From Terriglobia bacterium (GTDB lineage Bacteria; Acidobacteriota; Terriglobia; Terriglobales; Acidobacteriaceae): 64,000 bases of DNA. The stretch lies in contig JAJPJE010000068.1 in the NCBI GenBank assembly GCA_021324365.1, forward strand, positions 1-64,000, read 5' to 3'. Position numbers and translations under genes: made by a program. Positions 51,150-58,563 of this stretch are shown here, in pieces. A model generated the notes under the pieces. That model was not told the origin of the DNA and did not search any database. It saw nothing but the letters and a program-made list of their open reading frames with translations. The first letter of the stretch is position 1, and every line of letters starts with the position of its first letter.

Positions 51150-51530
51150 TCATGCCGCGGGAGGTTCGGGAAGCGGCGGCATGGGTGGCGGTTGAATTGG
51201 CAGAGCGGGTACAACCGGCACCACGTCGAGTTCCATTTCGATTCCGCCCACCCAGCGCGCTACCAGGTTGTAGACGAGAGCGCCAATAGCTCCAAAGATG
51301 AAGCCCATCAGCCCATACCCGATCGGTGCAGCAATCGCCATGATGATTCCAAACGCAATCCCAAATCCTGCGGCGGCATTCGCTCCGCTGCCTGGAACCT
51401 GTTTCATGGCGAGAGATGAGGCCAAGCCGATTACCAGGAAAATAGGGAAGACCACTAGCCCGATTGCGCCGTAAATGAGCCCGAAAATCTTTGCTACCGA
51501 CATTACTCCGACAGACTTGATGCGATGCAT
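51150..51530 (-). CDS. Small membrane protein, paralogue A of a tandem pair
   Basis: ATG 51530 has AAAGGAG upstream. The 126-residue product starts MHRIKSVGVMSVAKIFGLIY and has two to three helices (AIGLVVFPIFLVIGLASSLA, GIAFGIIMAIAAPIGYGLMG). The motif FGAIGALVYNLVARWVGGIE and a Pro-rich cytoplasmic tail follow. The pattern resembles a transmembrane DUF3566-type domain. It has a neighbour with the same beginning and end motifs. Function is unknown. Confidence 0.68.
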   Translation of the reverse strand: MHRIKSVGVMSVAKIFGLIYGAIGLVVFPIFLVIGLASSLAMKQVPGSGANAAAGFGIAFGIIMAIAAPIGYGLMGFIFGAIGALVYNLVARWVGGIEMELDVVPVVPALPIQPPPMPPLPEPPAA

Positions 51531-51553
51531 GTTCGCTCCTTTGTTGATCAGGC

Positions 51554-51886
51554 TCACACAACAACTTGCGTCGGCGAGGCTTCAACTTCCATTTCGATTC
51601 CGCCAACCCAGCGTGCCATCAGGTTGTAGAGCAGTGCGCCGACTGCGCCGGTAATGAATCCGATCAGGCCATAAAAGACCGGGGCCAAGACTGCCATTGC
51701 GATGGCGAATGCGGGTCCGAGAAACGCGAATGGATTATTGCCATTCATATTTCCTTGTTTGCCTGCAATCGCCATGGAAAACGCCATCAGCAGAAAGAAA
51801 GGAATGAGCAGCAATCCCAGTGCGGCATGAACCATCCCGGAAACTTTAGCTAGCGACAAAACTCCCACGGATCGAATGCGATGCAT
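51554..51886 (-). CDS. Small membrane protein, paralogue B of a tandem pair
   Basis: The 110-residue product starts MHRIRSVGVLSLAKVSGMVH and ends with TGAVGALLYNLMARWVGGIE followed by a short tail. It thus mirrors its downstream neighbour (51150-51530), which begins 23 bases after its stop. CAGGAGGT lies upstream of the ATG. Two or three helices are present, for example ALGLLLIPFFLLMAFSMAIA. The pair looks like a tandem duplication that diverged. Function is unknown. Confidence 0.68.
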   Translation of the reverse strand: MHRIRSVGVLSLAKVSGMVHAALGLLLIPFFLLMAFSMAIAGKQGNMNGNNPFAFLGPAFAIAMAVLAPVFYGLIGFITGAVGALLYNLMARWVGGIEMEVEASPTQVVV

Positions 51887-52031: not shown

Positions 52032-53672
52032 TCACGCCTTGCCCCATCCTCCCCCACCTGGAGATTCGATCCGTATACGCTCGCCGCATTTCAGACGCAC
52101 GCTGGTTTTACTGGCAAGCTCTTCTCTCGTTCCGCTGGCGCGAATTGCGACCGACCGTCCCGGTCTGCCTGATTCTCCGCCTTGAAGACCGTAAGGTGCC
52201 GTCTTGCGCCGGTCGGAAAGTATCGTGACTTCTGCATCGGCCAGCAGTTCGACCTCGCGCACCAGTCCATCCCCGCCCGCGTACAAACCTGCGCCTCCGC
52301 TGCCGCGGCGAAGCGAATACTCCGTTACACGAAATGGGTATGCGTATTCGAGGGCTTCTACCGGTGTGTTGAGGGAATTGGTCATGTGCGTGTGCACGCC
52401 GGAAACGCCAGCTTTGGTGGGCCGGCCGCCAGTCGCCCCTGCGACCGTTTCGTAGTATGCGAAAGGCTCAGCAGTACGTGGATCGATACCGCCAATCGTA
52501 AGATTGTTCATTGTTCCGCTGGAAGCGGCGGGAATGCCATCCGGCAAAAGATGTGAGAGCGCCTTTAGGAGCACGTCCACGATTCGCTGTGAGGTCTCCA
52601 CATTTCCCCCCGCGACAGAAGCAGGTGGGCGAGCATTCACCACCGTTCCACTTGGGGCAATCACTTCAATCGGGTGCATGAGTCCTGCGGTGGCGGGAAC
52701 ATCTTCGGCAACGAGGCATCGGAACACATAGAAGCATGCTGAATACGCAATGGCCTCCACGGCATTAATGCTCCCTGCGACCTGCGGCGAGGAACCGCTG
52801 AAGTCAATAGTCGCCGCGTGGCGCCGGCGCGCCTTCGCTTTGCTCAAGGCACTCGCCGCTTTGCGACTGTCGTGAATCCGAATCGAAACCGAAACCCTCA
52901 CGGGCTCGTCGCTCACGCCATCGTTATCCAGGAAGTCTTCAGCTTGGCCAATTCCTGCAGGCACCCGGCCCAAAAATGCAAGCATCATCTCTTCGGAATA
53001 TTCCAGCAGGTCGGCCGCCGCTTGTTGTACACGCGGCATTCCGTAACGATAAGCAACCTGGCGGAGTCTCATTTCTCCCGTGTGGCACGCCGCGATTTGC
53101 GCATTCAGATCGCCTTCGCGCTCTACTGGAGTCCGCACATTAGCCAGCAGCAGTGCCAAAACATCGCGGTCCACTTCACCTCGCCGGATCAATCTCACTG
53201 GAGAAATCCGAAATCCTTCCTGGTAAATCTCGCGGCAGATTCCCATCGATCCCGCATATGTTCCACCAACATCGGAGTGATGCGCACGAGACGCAACGTA
53301 GAAGTCGGCAGCGTGTGATCTCGCGGATCTGGCGAGCTTCTTAGCGATAAACACCGGCGCCACGAGCGTGACATCCGGCAAGTGAGTTCCACCGGCGAAG
53401 GGATCATTCAGCATTGCTACGTCGCCGGGGCCAAGTTGCAGTTCCCTGATTGCGGCGCGCACGGACATCGGCATCGATCCGAGATGCACCGGCATGTGAT
53501 CGCCCATTGCAATTACTTCGCCCGCGCTGTTGAAAACCGCGCACGAATAATCCCGCCGCTCCTTGATGTTCGGTGAGAATGCCGTGCGGCGCAGAGCAGC
53601 GCCCATTTCTTCCGCGATGGAGTGGAAAATGTTTTTGAAGATCTCGAGTTCGATGGGATCGCGCTTGTTCAC
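52032..53672 (-). CDS. hyuB: Hydantoinase B / oxoprolinase beta-type protein
   Basis: HyuB-type subunits work with HyuA in ATP-dependent opening of hydantoins, 5-oxoproline or acetone-like substrates. The 546-residue protein begins DPIELEIFKNIFHSIAEEMG. It shows RRDYSCAVFNSAGEVIAMGD, HMPVHLGSMPMSVRAAI, LNDPFAGGTHLPDVTLVAPV and the late ASSGTMNNLTIGG and RRGSGGAGLYAGGDGLVREV. No hyuA gene is in the window, so its partner must be elsewhere, or the protein acts alone. Substrate is unknown. Confidence 0.88.
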   Translation of the reverse strand: MNKRDPIELEIFKNIFHSIAEEMGAALRRTAFSPNIKERRDYSCAVFNSAGEVIAMGDHMPVHLGSMPMSVRAAIRELQLGPGDVAMLNDPFAGGTHLPDVTLVAPVFIAKKLARSARSHAADFYVASRAHHSDVGGTYAGSMGICREIYQEGFRISPVRLIRRGEVDRDVLALLLANVRTPVEREGDLNAQIAACHTGEMRLRQVAYRYGMPRVQQAAADLLEYSEEMMLAFLGRVPAGIGQAEDFLDNDGVSDEPVRVSVSIRIHDSRKAASALSKAKARRRHAATIDFSGSSPQVAGSINAVEAIAYSACFYVFRCLVAEDVPATAGLMHPIEVIAPSGTVVNARPPASVAGGNVETSQRIVDVLLKALSHLLPDGIPAASSGTMNNLTIGGIDPRTAEPFAYYETVAGATGGRPTKAGVSGVHTHMTNSLNTPVEALEYAYPFRVTEYSLRRGSGGAGLYAGGDGLVREVELLADAEVTILSDRRKTAPYGLQGGESGRPGRSVAIRASGTREELASKTSVRLKCGERIRIESPGGGGWGKA

Positions 53673-53876: not shown

Positions 53877-53906
53877 TTGACAACCCTCAACAGTACACCG
53901 CAATAT
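53877..53906 (+). promoter_or_regulatory. Candidate sigma-70 promoter of the micropeptide unit
   Basis: A perfect -35 TTGACA (53877-53882) is followed after 18 bases by CAATAT (53901-53906), which keeps the key A2 and T6 of a -10 box. Transcription would start near 53913, leaving a leader of about 95 bases. The leader has a TTGGG-C-CCCAA palindrome (53955-53965) and an AACCTTC/GAAGGTT hairpin (53971-53990) next to the ribosome site. Confidence 0.5.
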
Positions 53907-54007
53907 CTTGTGTCATACAGGCTGCTCGCCCAAATTGTAGGGCGGGGAATGTAGTTGGGCCCCAATCCAAAACCTTCAAGGGAGAAGGTTCCAGGAGGTC
54001 AACAAAC

Positions 54008-54058
54008 ATGGCAACAAAGAAAAAGGCAAAAAAAGCGGCTACAAAGAAAAAGAAGTAA
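54008..54058 (+). CDS. 16-residue lysine-rich micropeptide
   Basis: The ATG at 54008 has a perfect AGGAGGT (53993-53999) eight bases upstream and encodes MATKKKAKKAATKKKK then TAA. Ten of 16 residues are Lys; the rest are mostly Ala and Thr, like the tails of histone H1-like or HU proteins. A hairpin abuts the ribosome site, a TTGACA promoter lies 130 bases before it, and a strong terminator begins 37 bases after its stop. So it looks like a complete short transcript. Alternatives are a leader peptide or the last piece of a lost histone-like gene. Confidence 0.6.
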   Translation: MATKKKAKKAATKKKK

Positions 54059-54094
54059 CAGCCGCGGTTGCATAGTAGAAGTGGAAGAGGGTTG

Positions 54095-54122
54095 AGGGCC
54101 TCCCGCGGTGGAGGCCCTTTTT
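54095..54122 (+). terminator. Rho-independent terminator after the micropeptide
   Basis: AGGGCCTCC (54095-54103) pairs with GGAGGCCCT (54110-54118) across a CGCGGT loop, followed by TTTT. The stem has nine perfect pairs. It isolates the micropeptide transcript from the downstream merR gene. Confidence 0.92.
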
Positions 54123-54238
54123 ACTGCGGCACTTGTTTCATCGGTGCTGTCCATGCTAGAAATCGCGTAATATTCTGTAAGTGGGAACGACATCTGGCCG
54201 ATGGTTTAGTAATCAAATCCAGATTCTCCGAGCAGTCC

Positions 54239-54676
54239 ATGAGTGCAAACCGGAAGTCCGCCACGAACAGGAAAGCCGAAGAAGTACTGATCCCCGAAAA
54301 GCTGTATTTCCGCATTGGTGAGGTCAGCCGCCTGTGCAAACTACCAGCCTATGTGCTGCGCTTCTGGGAGACGGAATTCCCGCAACTGAAGCCCACAAAG
54401 AGCGGCACCGGCCAGCGTATGTATCGTCGACGAGAGGTGGAACTGGCGCTTCGTATCAAGAAACTCTTATACGAAGAAGGATTCACGATTGCCGGCGCGC
54501 GGCAGCAGTTGAAACTAGAAGCCAAGCCCGCCAAGATGCAACCTGCATTGCCGTTTCTGGCACCGCCGAATAACGACAGCTTGAAGCGTGTGCGCACACA
54601 GTTACAGGAGATCCTGGCCATTCTTTCCGCCAAATCGCACCCGCACCCGAAACCGGCGGCCGCGGCGCAGAAATAG
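54239..54676 (+). CDS. MerR-family transcriptional regulator
   Basis: From ATG 54239 the 145-residue protein has a MerR winged helix-turn-helix: [40 protein letters not shown] and [20 protein letters not shown], then [11 protein letters not shown] Pro-rich link and a helical C terminus ([16 protein letters not shown]) for dimerisation follow. No ligand-binding domain or effector cysteines are seen, so the signal is unknown. In several bacteria a regulator of this kind lies next to an ihfA-type gene; here the upstream neighbour is the lysine-rich micropeptide. It converges on pyrC. Confidence 0.85.
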
Positions 54677-54742: not shown

Positions 54743-56086
54743 CTATTTCGCTGCTTCGTATACCAGCCTTCCGCCTACGATGCTCACCATCGCTTTACCC
54801 GTCAGCTTCCAACCCCCGAATGGTGTGTTCTTCGACTTCGACCGCGATTCTTTCCAATCGAATGTCCATTTCCGTTTCGGATCGAAGATCGTCACATCGG
54901 CAGGTGCGCCTGCAGAGAGTTGACCCCGTCCGCCAAGCGAGAGAATCCGTCCGGGATTCGCGGTCAACAGCTCTACAACCCGCTGCAACGGAATGCCACG
55001 TTTTTCGTGTAACTCGCTGATTCCTAACCCGAGCGCGGTTTCCAACCCCGTGATATCGAATGCCGCGCGATCGAACTCCACCATCTTCTCGTGATGCGCA
55101 TGCGGGGCGTGATCGGTAGCTATGGCATCAATGGTTCCGTCTTCCAACGCCATTAACATGGCTTCGCGGTCTTCCTGCGAGCGCAGCGGCGGATTCATCT
55201 TGTAGCGCGTGTCGTATCCTGCCACCGCTTCCTCCGTCAGCGAGAAGTGGTGCGGCGTGACCTCGCAGCTTACGCGCACACCTTCGCGCTTCCCACGCCT
55301 TACTTCCTCGACAGCCGCCGCCGTCGAAATGTGGGCGACATGTATATGCGCACCCGTCTTTCTCGCGAGTTCAATATCGCGGCGTACGATCGCTGCTTCC
55401 GCCTCTGCCGGCATTCCACGCAATCCGAGGCGAAGTGAGACCGCACCGTAATTCATCTGCGTGCCTGCGGTTACTCGCGTGTCTTCGGCATGCTGAATCA
55501 CCGGAAAGCCCGTGCGTTTAGCTGCCTCCAGCGCTTCTCGCATGATCTGGTCATCGAGGATCGGCCTGCCGTCATCGCTGACCGCGACCGCACCAGCCTC
55601 CCGCAGTGCGTAGAAATCTGTAAGTTTTTCGCCTTGACTGCCCAGCGTTGCTGCCGCGATCGGGAAGACGTTGACCAAAGCGCCGCGTTCGGGCGACTGC
55701 ATCCAGCGCGTGGTTTCAACCGAATCGTTCACCGGTTGTGTATTCGGCATCGCGCAGACTGACGTGAATCCACCCTTGGCCGCCGCTGCCGTTCCGGTTG
55801 CGATCGTCTCCTTGTACGCTTGTCCGGGTTCGCGCAGGTGGACGTGCAAATCAATGAAACCTGGCGCGACGATCAGGCCCTTCGCCTCGATCGTCCGCTC
55901 GGCTTTTTCCTTCAGCTTCGGAGCGACCGCCGCGATCTTTCCATCGCGAATAAATACGTCCGCAGGGCCGTCCACCCCATTTGCCGGATCGATTACATGC
56001 CCGCCACAGATGAGGAGTGACTTCGGCGGCTGCTTCGAATCGAGCCGCTGATTAACGCTCATAAACGCCGATTCTTTTCTTGTCAT
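54743..56086 (-). CDS. pyrC: Dihydroorotase
   Basis: The enzyme closes carbamoyl-aspartate to dihydroorotate in pyrimidine synthesis. The 447-residue amidohydrolase has the metal motif DLHVHLREPGQAYKETIATG, then AKGGFTSVCAMPNTQP, HAEDTRV, HIHVAHISTA and DAIATDHAPHAHHEK. ATG 56086 has AGGAAAG upstream. It lies downstream of pyrB and pyrR on the same strand, with a repeat-filled gap of about 150 bases before it. Class I type. Confidence 0.95.
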   Translation of the reverse strand: MTRKESAFMSVNQRLDSKQPPKSLLICGGHVIDPANGVDGPADVFIRDGKIAAVAPKLKEKAERTIEAKGLIVAPGFIDLHVHLREPGQAYKETIATGTAAAAKGGFTSVCAMPNTQPVNDSVETTRWMQSPERGALVNVFPIAAATLGSQGEKLTDFYALREAGAVAVSDDGRPILDDQIMREALEAAKRTGFPVIQHAEDTRVTAGTQMNYGAVSLRLGLRGMPAEAEAAIVRRDIELARKTGAHIHVAHISTAAAVEEVRRGKREGVRVSCEVTPHHFSLTEEAVAGYDTRYKMNPPLRSQEDREAMLMALEDGTIDAIATDHAPHAHHEKMVEFDRAAFDITGLETALGLGISELHEKRGIPLQRVVELLTANPGRILSLGGRGQLSAGAPADVTIFDPKRKWTFDWKESRSKSKNTPFGGWKLTGKAMVSIVGGRLVYEAAK

Positions 56087-56095
56087 TGCTTTCCT

Positions 56096-56236
56096 ACCAC
56101 AGAGTCACAGAGACACAGAGCCAGTCGGATGATCGAAAACAAAGGCGACGGCTTCGGGCGGTTTGGGCTGCGATTTTAGATTGCCCATTACCATTTACCC
56201 GATTGCCCGATCTCTTCTGCGCCTCTCTTTGGCGGA
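56096..56236. repeat. Intergenic repeat in the pyrB-pyrC gap
   Basis: ACCACAGAGTCACAGAGACA with CAGAG (56096-56120) faces TCTTCTGCGCCTCTCTTTGG with CGG (56213-56235), a loose inverted match of the CACAGAGGCACAGAG family. Between the arms, words such as GATTGCCCATTACC and GATTGCCCGATC recur. The element separates two pyrimidine genes on one strand. Confidence 0.5.
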
Positions 56237-56242
56237 TTCCTT

Positions 56243-57166
56243 TCACGCCAGCGCTCTTGCGAGAATCGCCATTCTCACCGCCACGCCATTACGCACCTGT
56301 TCCCGGATGACAGAATTCGGTCCATCAGCTACTTCGCTGGTGACTTCCAGTCCGCGGATGATCGGACCTGGGTGCATGACAATCGCGTCTTTTTTCGCTG
56401 CCTTTAGACGCTCCGGGCGCAATTGGTAACGCTCAATGTAATCGCCGAGGCTCAACTGCAAACCGGCAAGGCGTTCTTTCTGAATGCGCAATGCAATTAC
56501 GACATCCGTCCCTGTGAGAGCTTCTTCCAGATCGCGCGTCACGGTGACGCCCGGCGCGAGGGTTGCAGAAATATCAGGAACCAGTTCCGGCGGTCCGCAG
56601 AGGACGACTTTCGATCCGAACTTACTTAGCAGATGAACATCGGAACGCACCACACGGCTATGAAAGATGTCACCGATCATCGCGACTCGCAAGCCTTTCA
56701 GCGTTTTCTTGTGCTCCAGGATCGTATAGGCGTCGAGCAATCCTTGCGACGGGTGTTCGTGCATGCCGTCACCGGCATTGATTACCGGCACCGGAACATG
56801 TCGCGCCAGCATGTAGGGCGCACCAGACGAAGGATGCCGGATAACGATTGCCTGCGCGCCCAGAGATGTAACCGTATACCCGGTATCGATCAGTGATTCG
56901 CCCTTCTCGATACTCGAAGCCGAAGCCGATACCAGCGCTGTCGTCGCGCCCAGCGCCTTGGCGGCGAATTCAAATGAGACTCGCGTACGCGTCGAGGATT
57001 CGTAGAACAGCAGGACAACGCGTTTCCCGCTTAGCACGGGCTTTACTTTGCCGCGCTTCATCTTGCGGGCTTCTTGCAGAATAGAGCTGATTTCTTTGGT
57101 GGTGAGGTTTTCCAGTCCGAGCAAGGAACCGCGAGCAGGTTGGTTCATAAGTTGGTACCCATCCAA
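56243..57166 (-). CDS. pyrB: Aspartate carbamoyltransferase, catalytic subunit
   Basis: PyrB joins carbamoyl phosphate and aspartate, the first committed pyrimidine step. The 307-residue protein has the carbamoyl-phosphate motif YESSTRTRVSFEFAAKALGA, SIEKGESLIDTGYTV, PVINAGDGMHEHPSQGLLDA and the aspartate-domain end VMHPGPIIRGLEV. The start may be ATG 57166 or ATG 57148, since homologues often start near NQPARGSLLGLENLT. No pyrI regulatory gene is seen. It follows pyrR with a 34-base gap. Confidence 0.96.
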   Translation of the reverse strand: MDGYQLMNQPARGSLLGLENLTTKEISSILQEARKMKRGKVKPVLSGKRVVLLFYESSTRTRVSFEFAAKALGATTALVSASASSIEKGESLIDTGYTVTSLGAQAIVIRHPSSGAPYMLARHVPVPVINAGDGMHEHPSQGLLDAYTILEHKKTLKGLRVAMIGDIFHSRVVRSDVHLLSKFGSKVVLCGPPELVPDISATLAPGVTVTRDLEEALTGTDVVIALRIQKERLAGLQLSLGDYIERYQLRPERLKAAKKDAIVMHPGPIIRGLEVTSEVADGPNSVIREQVRNGVAVRMAILARALA

Positions 57167-57200
57167 ACCGTTCTCGGACTTGGGTGGGGTCTGAGTCCGT

Positions 57201-57785
57201 TTACACTTCGCGTTCTACCAGCAAGACTTTTTCAGTATGATCGGTCTCGTTCAGCTTTACTTCAATAATCTCGCGATCCGTGGTCTGAATGTATCGACCA
57301 ACGAACGCCGCCTCGATGGGTAGTTCGCGGTGCCCGCGATCGATCAGCGTGAGCAATTGCACACGCTGAGGGCGCCCATGATCGAACAGCGCATCCAGCG
57401 CCGCCCGCGTCGTGCGGCCGGTGTACAGCACATCATCTACGAGGATGACGTGCATGCCTTTAATGTTCGCACCCAGGTCTCCTGCACGCACTTCAGGCTT
57501 TGGTCCTACCGTGGTGAGATCGTCGCGGTACAAGGTGATATCCAGCGTCCCAACGGGGACTTTCTTGTTCTCGATTCGCTCGATCACGCGTGCCAGTCTC
57601 TCTGCGAGCGGTACCCCTCGACGTCGTATTCCGACCAGGACCAGCTTTTCCGTGCCGTTGTTCTTCTCGATGATTTCGTGTGCCAGTCGAACCAGGGTAC
57701 GTTCGATCTCGGAAGCCGACATCAACTGCGCTTTCTGGCGCAGGTTGGCAGTCGCGGAGAGTTTTGCGGTCATCAGCCGCATCAT
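57201..57785 (-). CDS. pyrR: Bifunctional pyr operon regulator / uracil phosphoribosyltransferase PyrR
   Basis: PyrR binds pyr mRNA with UMP to attenuate transcription and has weak UPRT activity. The core begins near MSASEIERTLVRLAHEIIEK. It shows LVLVGIRRRGVPLAERLARV, the PRPP loop VILVDDVLYTGRTTRAALDA and LLTLIDRGHRELPIEAAFVG. I placed the start at ATG 57785; ATG 57773 is equally possible, and no clear ribosome site decides. A longer frame runs back through the upstream terminator and is not coding. It heads pyrR-pyrB-pyrC. Confidence 0.93.
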   Translation of the reverse strand: MMRLMTAKLSATANLRQKAQLMSASEIERTLVRLAHEIIEKNNGTEKLVLVGIRRRGVPLAERLARVIERIENKKVPVGTLDITLYRDDLTTVGPKPEVRAGDLGANIKGMHVILVDDVLYTGRTTRAALDALFDHGRPQRVQLLTLIDRGHRELPIEAAFVGRYIQTTDREIIEVKLNETDHTEKVLLVEREV

Positions 57786-57839
57786 AAAAGCTTGCAACAG
57801 CACCCGGCAAGTTTGGTTACGCGTAGAAAATCGTACCGC

Positions 57840-57869
57840 AAAAAAACAAGCCGCCCGTTGGGGCGGCTT
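57840..57869 (-). terminator. Rho-independent terminator between ompH and pyrR
   Basis: Read on the minus strand, AAGCCGCC pairs with GGCGGCTT across a CCAACG loop. A G is followed by seven Ts. It ends the ompH transcript 23 bases after its stop codon and lies about 55 bases before the pyrR start. It could instead be a leader attenuator for the pyr genes, but no alternative antiterminator was recognised. Confidence 0.9.
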
Positions 57870-57891
57870 ATCGTCCATTCCGTCGCGATTA

Positions 57892-58563
57892 CTATTTCGG
57901 ACTTGTTGCCGAAGGAGCAGCCGGCTTCGGATTCGAAGACGCGGTCGCTGGACGCGCGGGCGGCGCCGCCACCGGAGAAGCGGCGTTGTAGGCAGCCGCC
58001 ACCTGTTGCGTGACATCGACGTTCGGCTGCGCCCACAAAATCGGATTCTGCGGCCCCGAAACGTCGATAATCATGCTGAATCCATTCGCCTTCGCGTACT
58101 TGTCGAGCGTTTCCATCAGCTTGGTTCCGACGCGGTTTACCAGTTCCTGTTGCTGACCTTGATAATCGTTCTGCGCGTCTTCGGCCTGGCGCTGCAAGGT
58201 TTTGCGCTTCGTTTCGATGCTCTTGACCAGGTTATTGCGGGCCTCGTCATTGAGCTTTGAGCCTTGGCTGTCCAGTTGTTTCTGCAAATCTTCCACTTCT
58301 TTGTTCAGGCTCTGTAATTCCACACGCTTGGGGTCAAATTTCTTTTCCAGGGCATCAATATCGCGCTTGCCTTCGTTCGTCAGCGCAATCGCCTGCTGGA
58401 TGTTAATGATCCCGATCTTGGTGGCCCCCGCCGGCGCAGAGGCGACCGGAGCAGCGGCAGATCCGCCGGGTGTAGGTGCTGAAGGAACCGATCCTGTCTG
58501 GGCCAATGCAGCTGAACACAGGAATGCCAGGGGTAAAGCAGAACGTACGAGAGTGCTTTTCAT
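57892..58563 (-). CDS. OmpH/Skp-family periplasmic chaperone
   Basis: Skp-like proteins hold unfolded outer-membrane proteins in the periplasm. The 223-residue protein has a signal peptide (KSTLVRSALPLAFLCSAALAQ) and a Pro/Ala-rich stretch. It then shows KIGIINIQQAIALTNEGKRD, a long coiled coil (LQSLNKEVEDLQKQLDSQGS, RQAEDAQNDYQGQQQELVNR) and the closing ANGFSMIIDVSGPQNPILWA. A Pro/Ala/Ser-rich tail of about 35 residues is unusual. It has its own promoter and terminator. Confidence 0.9.
   Translation of the reverse strand: MKSTLVRSALPLAFLCSAALAQTGSVPSAPTPGGSAAAPVASAPAGATKIGIINIQQAIALTNEGKRDIDALEKKFDPKRVELQSLNKEVEDLQKQLDSQGSKLNDEARNNLVKSIETKRKTLQRQAEDAQNDYQGQQQELVNRVGTKLMETLDKYAKANGFSMIIDVSGPQNPILWAQPNVDVTQQVAAAYNAASPVAAPPARPATASSNPKPAAPSATSPK

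Follow-up and report, generated by a model that had tools for sequence, protein, structure and literature searches.

A conserved lysine-rich micropeptide gene upstream of merR in Acidobacteriaceae and its candidate role as a free histone H1-like tail

Results

Architecture of the P1 unit

The window, a 64,000-nucleotide stretch of contig JAJPJE010000068.1 from a Terriglobia bacterium of the family Acidobacteriaceae, contains a compact transcription unit, P1, which is almost certainly a genuine gene. It encodes a lysine-rich peptide of 16 residues. The gene is conserved, and its codon pattern indicates that the amino acids, and not just the RNA, are selected. On balance we favor a reading in which P1 is an independent gene whose polycationic product would bind polyanions as a free histone H1-like tail.

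All elements of P1 lie on the forward strand. The promoter (53877–53906) combines TTGACA at 53877–53882 with CAATAT at 53901–53906, separated by an 18-nt spacer; a strict sigma-70 scan returned no site here because of the CAATAT −10 element. Assuming that transcription starts 7 nt past the −10 element, the leader is about 95 nt long. It contains a hairpin at 53971–53990 (AACCTTC/AAGGGA/GAAGGTT) with seven pairs and the loop AAGGGA at 53978–53983, followed by the Shine-Dalgarno (SD) sequence AGGAGGT at 53993–53999. The open reading frame (ORF; 54008–54058) starts with ATG at 54008 and comprises 16 codons and a stop, encoding MATKKKAKKAATKKKK. An intrinsic terminator, AGGGCCTCC-CGCGGT-GGAGGCCCT, occupies 54095–54122, with a nine-pair stem at 54095–54118 and a subsequent T run. 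An earlier note on this DNA had described the TTGACA promoter, the AGGAGGT, the 16-codon frame and the nine-pair terminator, all of which are present as it described them. It had also placed a hairpin directly against the SD. The hairpin is there, ending two bases 5′ of AGGAGGT, but the stem is not a conserved feature, as only 4 of 22 P1 leaders form one of at least five pairs; a conserved hairpin in the P1 leader was therefore rejected.

An 84-aa ORF with a GTG start is also open in the P1 reading frame; the conserved start is the ATG that follows the SD, not this GTG. The predicted P1 transcript of 208 nt folds somewhat better than its shuffles (z −2.6, with 2 of 200 shuffles equally good), which in our reading is owed largely to the terminator. 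Exactly one ATG ORF of 10–30 codons with at least 55% lysine exists in the whole window, and it has a GGAGG; comparable lysine-rich ORFs appeared in none of 60 simulated windows (first-order Markov).

Two neighbors served as synteny markers: a divergent hydantoinase B gene (52032–53672, minus strand; PF02538, 4e-198) and a merR-type gene encoding 145 aa (54239–54676, plus strand; PF13411, 7e-19). A promoter-like site for merR (TTGTTT, 17 nt, CTAGAA) lies at 54133–54161 on the plus strand, past the P1 terminator. Elsewhere in the window, two adjacent overlapping minus-strand ORFs at 51150–51886 encode small membrane-like proteins that are similar by eye (MHRIKSVGV... and MHRIRSVGV...), an apparent tandem duplication. 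The minus-strand region 54743–58016 holds an ordinary pyrimidine-type cluster by Pfam, with a dihydroorotase-like amidohydrolase, an aspartate/ornithine carbamoyltransferase and a phosphoribosyltransferase.

P1 recurs upstream of merR within the family

We compared 61 genomes, 37 of them from the window's own family (its own genome included). The MerR protein query matched 56 of the 61, including 35 of the 37 same-family genomes. P1 was found in 22 of these 37, the window's genome among them, each representing a different genus of the set. The P1 stop codon lies 128–812 nt upstream of the merR match in 21 genomes and about 2.5 kb upstream in one (G030). The encoded peptides are 12–27 residues long (for example MATKKKAAKKKKH, MPAKKKAKKKKKH and MATKKKAAKKTAKKKK), with a consensus of roughly M-A-T-K-K-K-A-A-K-K-(x)-K-K-K-K/H. 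A hydantoinase B cluster gene lies upstream of the ORF in seven loci, one of which was tested with Pfam.

The expression signals recur together with the frame. The promoter pattern TTGAC-N16-18-CAA[TA]AT precedes 20 of the 21 merR-linked units as well as the G030 unit, compared with 1 of 4200 Markov-resampled upstream stretches. Likewise, 20 of the 21 merR-linked units (all but G025) have a GGAGG no more than 20 nt from the ATG, as does G030. Of the 22 leaders, 21 carry an AGGGA no more than 70 nt upstream; in G028 it occurs only as part of the SD, and in the window it sits in the hairpin loop. In the alignment, much of the leader between the promoter and this AAGGGA box is poorly conserved. 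A terminator-like stem lies within 130 nt past the ORF in all 21 units, by a criterion so lax that it also admits 80 of 210 resampled stretches. SD, frame and peptide are thus all conserved in close relatives, and the position ahead of merR provides the synteny that the earlier note had proposed to look for. The recurrence of promoter, SD, frame and peptide, together with mostly synonymous substitutions, bears out its view of a functional micropeptide rather than noise.

Neither a look beside merR nor a single DNA search turned up P1 in the other 15 of the 37 same-family genomes, two of which have no merR match, so this copy seems dispensable. Outside the family, no P1-type unit was detected upstream of the merR match in 15 scanned genomes, three of which offered only 31, 415 and 731 nt of upstream sequence. 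One genome outside the family (G059) carries a 17-residue, lysine-containing ORF without the usual SD, which we excluded from the P1 count.

The site beside merR had also been suggested as one often held by ihfA-like genes. A PF00216 search of the 61 genomes lent this no support: among the matches listed, none lies beside merR, the nearest being 5.7 kb away in G015. By eye, no HU/IHF look-alike was seen among the nearest upstream ORFs of relatives lacking P1.

A second unit, P2, is nearly universal in the family

Lysine-rich loci away from merR revealed a second unit, P2. Its ORF occurs in 35 of the 37 same-family genomes, namely the 33 that entered the alignment together with G002 and G013, and was not found in G016, which is 81% complete, nor in G031. 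In the window's genome, P2 encodes MATKKATKKSAKKTSKKK on contig C26. The same peptide and SD occur at C26:10–128 and at C122:73665–73752, both at contig ends, apparently as one locus split by assembly.

The promoter TTGAC[AT]-N17-TATA[CT] is present in all 34 P2 loci examined (33 same-family loci and G051, which belongs to a different family within the class), a count that stands without a shuffled control. In the leader, the AGGGAGAA box, which contains the SD, is invariant in 33 of 33 sequences. The leader helices show pairing in 97.4% of cells and two-sided changes at five of nine pairs, a level reached by none of 500 shuffles; RNAalifold proposed only the first helix, and the second was drawn by hand from the same sequences. 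P2 appears geared to strong expression: its promoter is near-consensus, a covarying hairpin sits close to the 5′ end of the mRNA, and its SD box is invariant.

Of 13 P2 loci from metagenome-assembled genomes (MAGs), 11 have a thiolase-cluster gene among the three nearest upstream ORFs, and 12 have a UvrD/PD-(D/E)XK-cluster gene among the three nearest on the downstream side; one representative of each cluster was tested with Pfam. At 12 of the 13 loci, the closest ORF on the downstream side is convergent with P2, so that a directly downstream gene for P2 to regulate is rare; at one locus (L142), a co-directional ORF follows 56 nt downstream.

P1 is probably a second copy of this near-universal family gene, having arisen by duplication, as suggested by the type of peptide that the two units share and by their common AAGGGA box. 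In P1, the box now lies upstream of a second SD. Since the −10 elements differ, regulation of the two units may differ as well.

The peptide itself is under selection

Codon variation was assessed in groups of same-length ORFs with at least four sequences. Third positions are variable in 72 of 89 columns, compared with 52 of 178 for first and second positions combined (P 4.6e-16, with related sequences pooled and no phylogenetic correction). Pairwise codon differences are likewise mainly synonymous, with 167 synonymous and 125 non-synonymous for P1, and 202 and 134, respectively, for P2. This predominance of synonymous variation indicates that the peptide itself is under selection. Taken alone, A/G alternation in the third base of lysine codons could stem from a purine tract, and only the alanine and threonine codons argue otherwise; as alanine codons use all four third bases, a mere purine tract does not explain the pattern.

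The 22 P1 and 33 P2 peptides contain 7–12 lysines each and not a single acidic, aromatic or cysteine residue. All of them therefore have the composition of a histone H1 tail, rich in Lys, Ala and Pro and free of acidic and aromatic residues. The likeness to histone-like tails drawn in the earlier note is a fair one: P2 versions resemble H1 tails (for example MATKKAAKKPAKKAAKKTAKKK), and longer relatives join such a tail to a domain, DUF6496.

Similar micropeptides occur beyond the family

A P2 covariance model matched 147 of 299 genomes of the class at an E-value of 0.01 or better, and 52 of 247 genomes in a draw from the phylum; both are upper bounds for micropeptides, since some matches are proteins combining a tail with a domain. 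From the matches listed we picked, non-randomly, 20 weaker class places and 15 further places. Nineteen of the 20 hold a stand-alone ORF of 12–29 residues (for example MKNATKKAAKKAAKKAPAKKKK), and many of these, by eye, combine a GGGAGAAT-like SD with a hairpin. The twentieth, together with 10 of the 15 further places (one locus being shared), encodes proteins of 86–131 aa with a tail and a common C-terminal region. The remaining five comprise four lysine-rich ORFs of 35–51 residues and one place with a P1-like leader. Outside the class, six of seven places in the phylum hold a stand-alone ORF, two of these being read from GTG.

We also searched named genomes with a DNA pattern consisting of an SD, MxxKKKA and a nearby stop, which yielded at least 116 stretches; 80 loci were examined. 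At least 67 of these contain an ORF of up to 30 residues, a share biased by the pattern, which itself demands the SD, the MxxKKKA and the stop. Of the 67 short ORFs listed, 30 are in records labeled Acidobacteriota and 37 elsewhere, including Reyranella and related records, Betaproteobacteria, Nitrospirae, Methylomirabilis, Chloroflexi, Actinomycetota and four archaeal MAGs. Nine Reyranella-type records encode an identical 18-mer, MAAKKKAAKKKAAKKKKQ; eight have it 77–78 nt behind a gene belonging to one cluster, whose tested member is a class II ribonucleotide reductase. In six Betaproteobacterial loci, the micro-ORF follows another single-cluster gene by 240–345 nt, the member tested being lysA; this link to lysine biosynthesis may be a coincidence. 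Tandem lysine-rich micro-ORFs, each with its own SD, were observed at four loci in Methylomirabilis and Nitrospirae/Nitrospiria records. Among viral contigs, four carry the lysine pattern and one a Glu-rich control pattern, counts too small to support a conclusion. A phage or plasmid origin was considered and found no support, P1-like DNA not being found in phages, nor P2-like DNA in plasmids.

Gene contexts thus repeat within lineages and differ between them. Because the contexts differ, and because the peptides are too short and repetitive, homology across phyla cannot be claimed, and the lineages outside Acidobacteriota may be convergent.

Relation to known families

DUF6496 is a domain of unknown function. 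At ten same-family places, proteins 86–131 aa long carry a lysine-rich N-terminal tail (MATKKASKKSTKKAA...). Proteins with this tail-plus-domain layout are preceded by a GGGAGGAT- or GGGAGAAT-type SD, and the two tested carry DUF6496 (PF20106). Their tail is of the same kind as the micropeptide, which stops before any domain; PF20106, which spans 58 positions, had no match in nine longer versions of the micropeptide.

Among curated families (PF07382 and NCBIfam), none of nine versions of 20–37 aa scored above the cut-off, the 16-mer itself being too short for such a search. The best curated match was PF07382, at a sub-threshold E-value of 0.023 from a 27-aa P1 peptide. This family represents Hc2 of Chlamydia, which, like AlgP of Pseudomonas, has an H1-like tail of Lys/Ala/Pro/Thr repeats without acidic or aromatic residues. 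The tails of HupB and Rv3852 are likewise histone H1-like. Compared with AlgP and Hc2, the micropeptide is the tail alone, 12–32 residues without a folded domain, expressed from its own transcription unit. The closest functional parallel that we found is the AlgP tail, which is reported to be required for normal spacing of polyphosphate granules in Pseudomonas aeruginosa (PMC9239181).

In the window, the one Rfam match at the gathering threshold was a tRNA away from P1, and 12 related loci gave none. A Phe-leader match at 54043–54124 (18.7 bits, against a gathering threshold of 55) was dismissed as chance-level. In the literature, searched by title and the opening of abstracts with most subscription papers outside its reach, we found no description of the peptide, and six peptide strings searched as letters led to no paper. 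The GMSC catalog (PMC11364881) was built from ORFs predicted from 30 nt upward, so such micropeptides may sit unlabeled in it. The sources consulted also include sORFdb (PMC11796252) and Weinberg 2010 (PMC2864571). What we rate as new is that an H1-like lysine-rich tail, in itself a known kind, is here reduced to a stand-alone micro-gene.

Discussion

The peptides of P1 and P2 probably coat DNA, RNA or another negatively charged polymer, a role predicted from their composition and expression signals. By analogy with histone H1-like tails, the product is most likely a polycation acting in trans, and the differing genomic contexts between lineages also suggest action in trans. Strong promoters and SDs would make the peptide abundant; unfolded and lysine-rich, it would bind polyanions such as DNA, RNA and ribosomes, or polyphosphate, and thereby neutralize or condense them.

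Several other readings were weighed. The peptide could be a ribosome-associated micro-protein, a tiny constitutive component or assembly factor lying along rRNA, as bTHX does in Thermus. Like bTHX and bS22, both tiny basic ribosomal proteins, it is very short and very basic and carries strong expression signals; the strong P2 promoter and SD and its near-universality in the family would fit a product linked to translation. We nevertheless regard this as unlikely. The peptide consists mostly of K, A, T and P with no evidence of a fixed structure, the length spread of 12–32 residues is loose for a fixed rRNA pocket, and the few neighbors identified (hydantoinase B, MerR, thiolase, UvrD helicase, nrdJ and lysA) include no ribosomal-protein gene. 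A binder of polyphosphate or other polyanion granules, acting like the KPAA-repeat tail of AlgP, is a rather improbable alternative: the compositions are alike, and the granule-spacing role reported for that tail is in its favor, but the AlgP tail belongs to a longer DNA-binding protein, and the few neighbors identified include no polyphosphate gene.

The earlier note had left room for a leader peptide or a small RNA, both of which are disfavored. Amino-acid leader peptides, such as the his, thr and phe attenuators, are also very short ORFs rich in one residue and followed by a terminator. P1 shows this order ahead of merR, which it might control in cis by sensing lysyl-tRNA or stalling ribosomes, and the similar Betaproteobacterial ORF follows a lysA-type gene. 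In 9 of the 21 P1 units, no separate merR promoter was found with the motif used, and read-through may occur there. In the other 12, however, a promoter-like TTGnnn-N15-19-CTARAA lies past the ORF, a motif present in 40 of 4200 resampled stretches. Inspection of the P1 alignment by eye revealed no alternative antiterminator. The downstream gene on the same transcript that an attenuator would regulate was looked for and not found. Moreover, the peptide is kept across contexts, and the nearest downstream ORF is convergent not only at nearly all P2 loci but also at four of the five Betaproteobacterial loci with one listed. Given the promoter-like site of merR and the convergent ORFs after P2, we consider an attenuator role very unlikely. 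A small regulatory RNA with a secondary ORF might account for the compact unit with its strong terminator and for the covarying helices in the P2 leader; it is hard to reconcile with an ORF that changes mainly at synonymous positions, with a P1 leader that is mostly poorly conserved from promoter to AAGGGA box, and with the Rfam results, in which only the tRNA matched in the window, and we give it slight credence. Low-complexity sequence and the longer lysine-tail proteins of relatives could point to chance, or to the decayed remains of a once longer histone-like gene. This is scarcely credible: promoter, SD and ORF are conserved over 22 genomes of 22 genera, which already contradicts it, and comparable ORFs are absent from the simulated windows.

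Returning to the free H1-like tail, we tentatively extend the proposal, with less confidence than for P1 itself, to a widespread and overlooked class of bacterial and archaeal genes. Such free-standing, strongly expressed H1-tail micropeptides of 12–32 residues would act as single-purpose polycations that govern how the nucleoid or RNA is charged or compacted, and could be ancestral, or a donor, to the tails fused to domains such as DUF6496.

Genes of 12–20 codons lie under the usual annotation limits and low-complexity filters, and for this reason a gene that is near-universal in a family could stay unseen. The genome to which the window belongs has at least two such lysine/alanine micropeptide genes, P1 and P2. 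Their strong expression signals and near-pure polycationic products suggest an abundant component of the nucleoid, of RNA or of granules, one that present models of bacterial chromatin omit.
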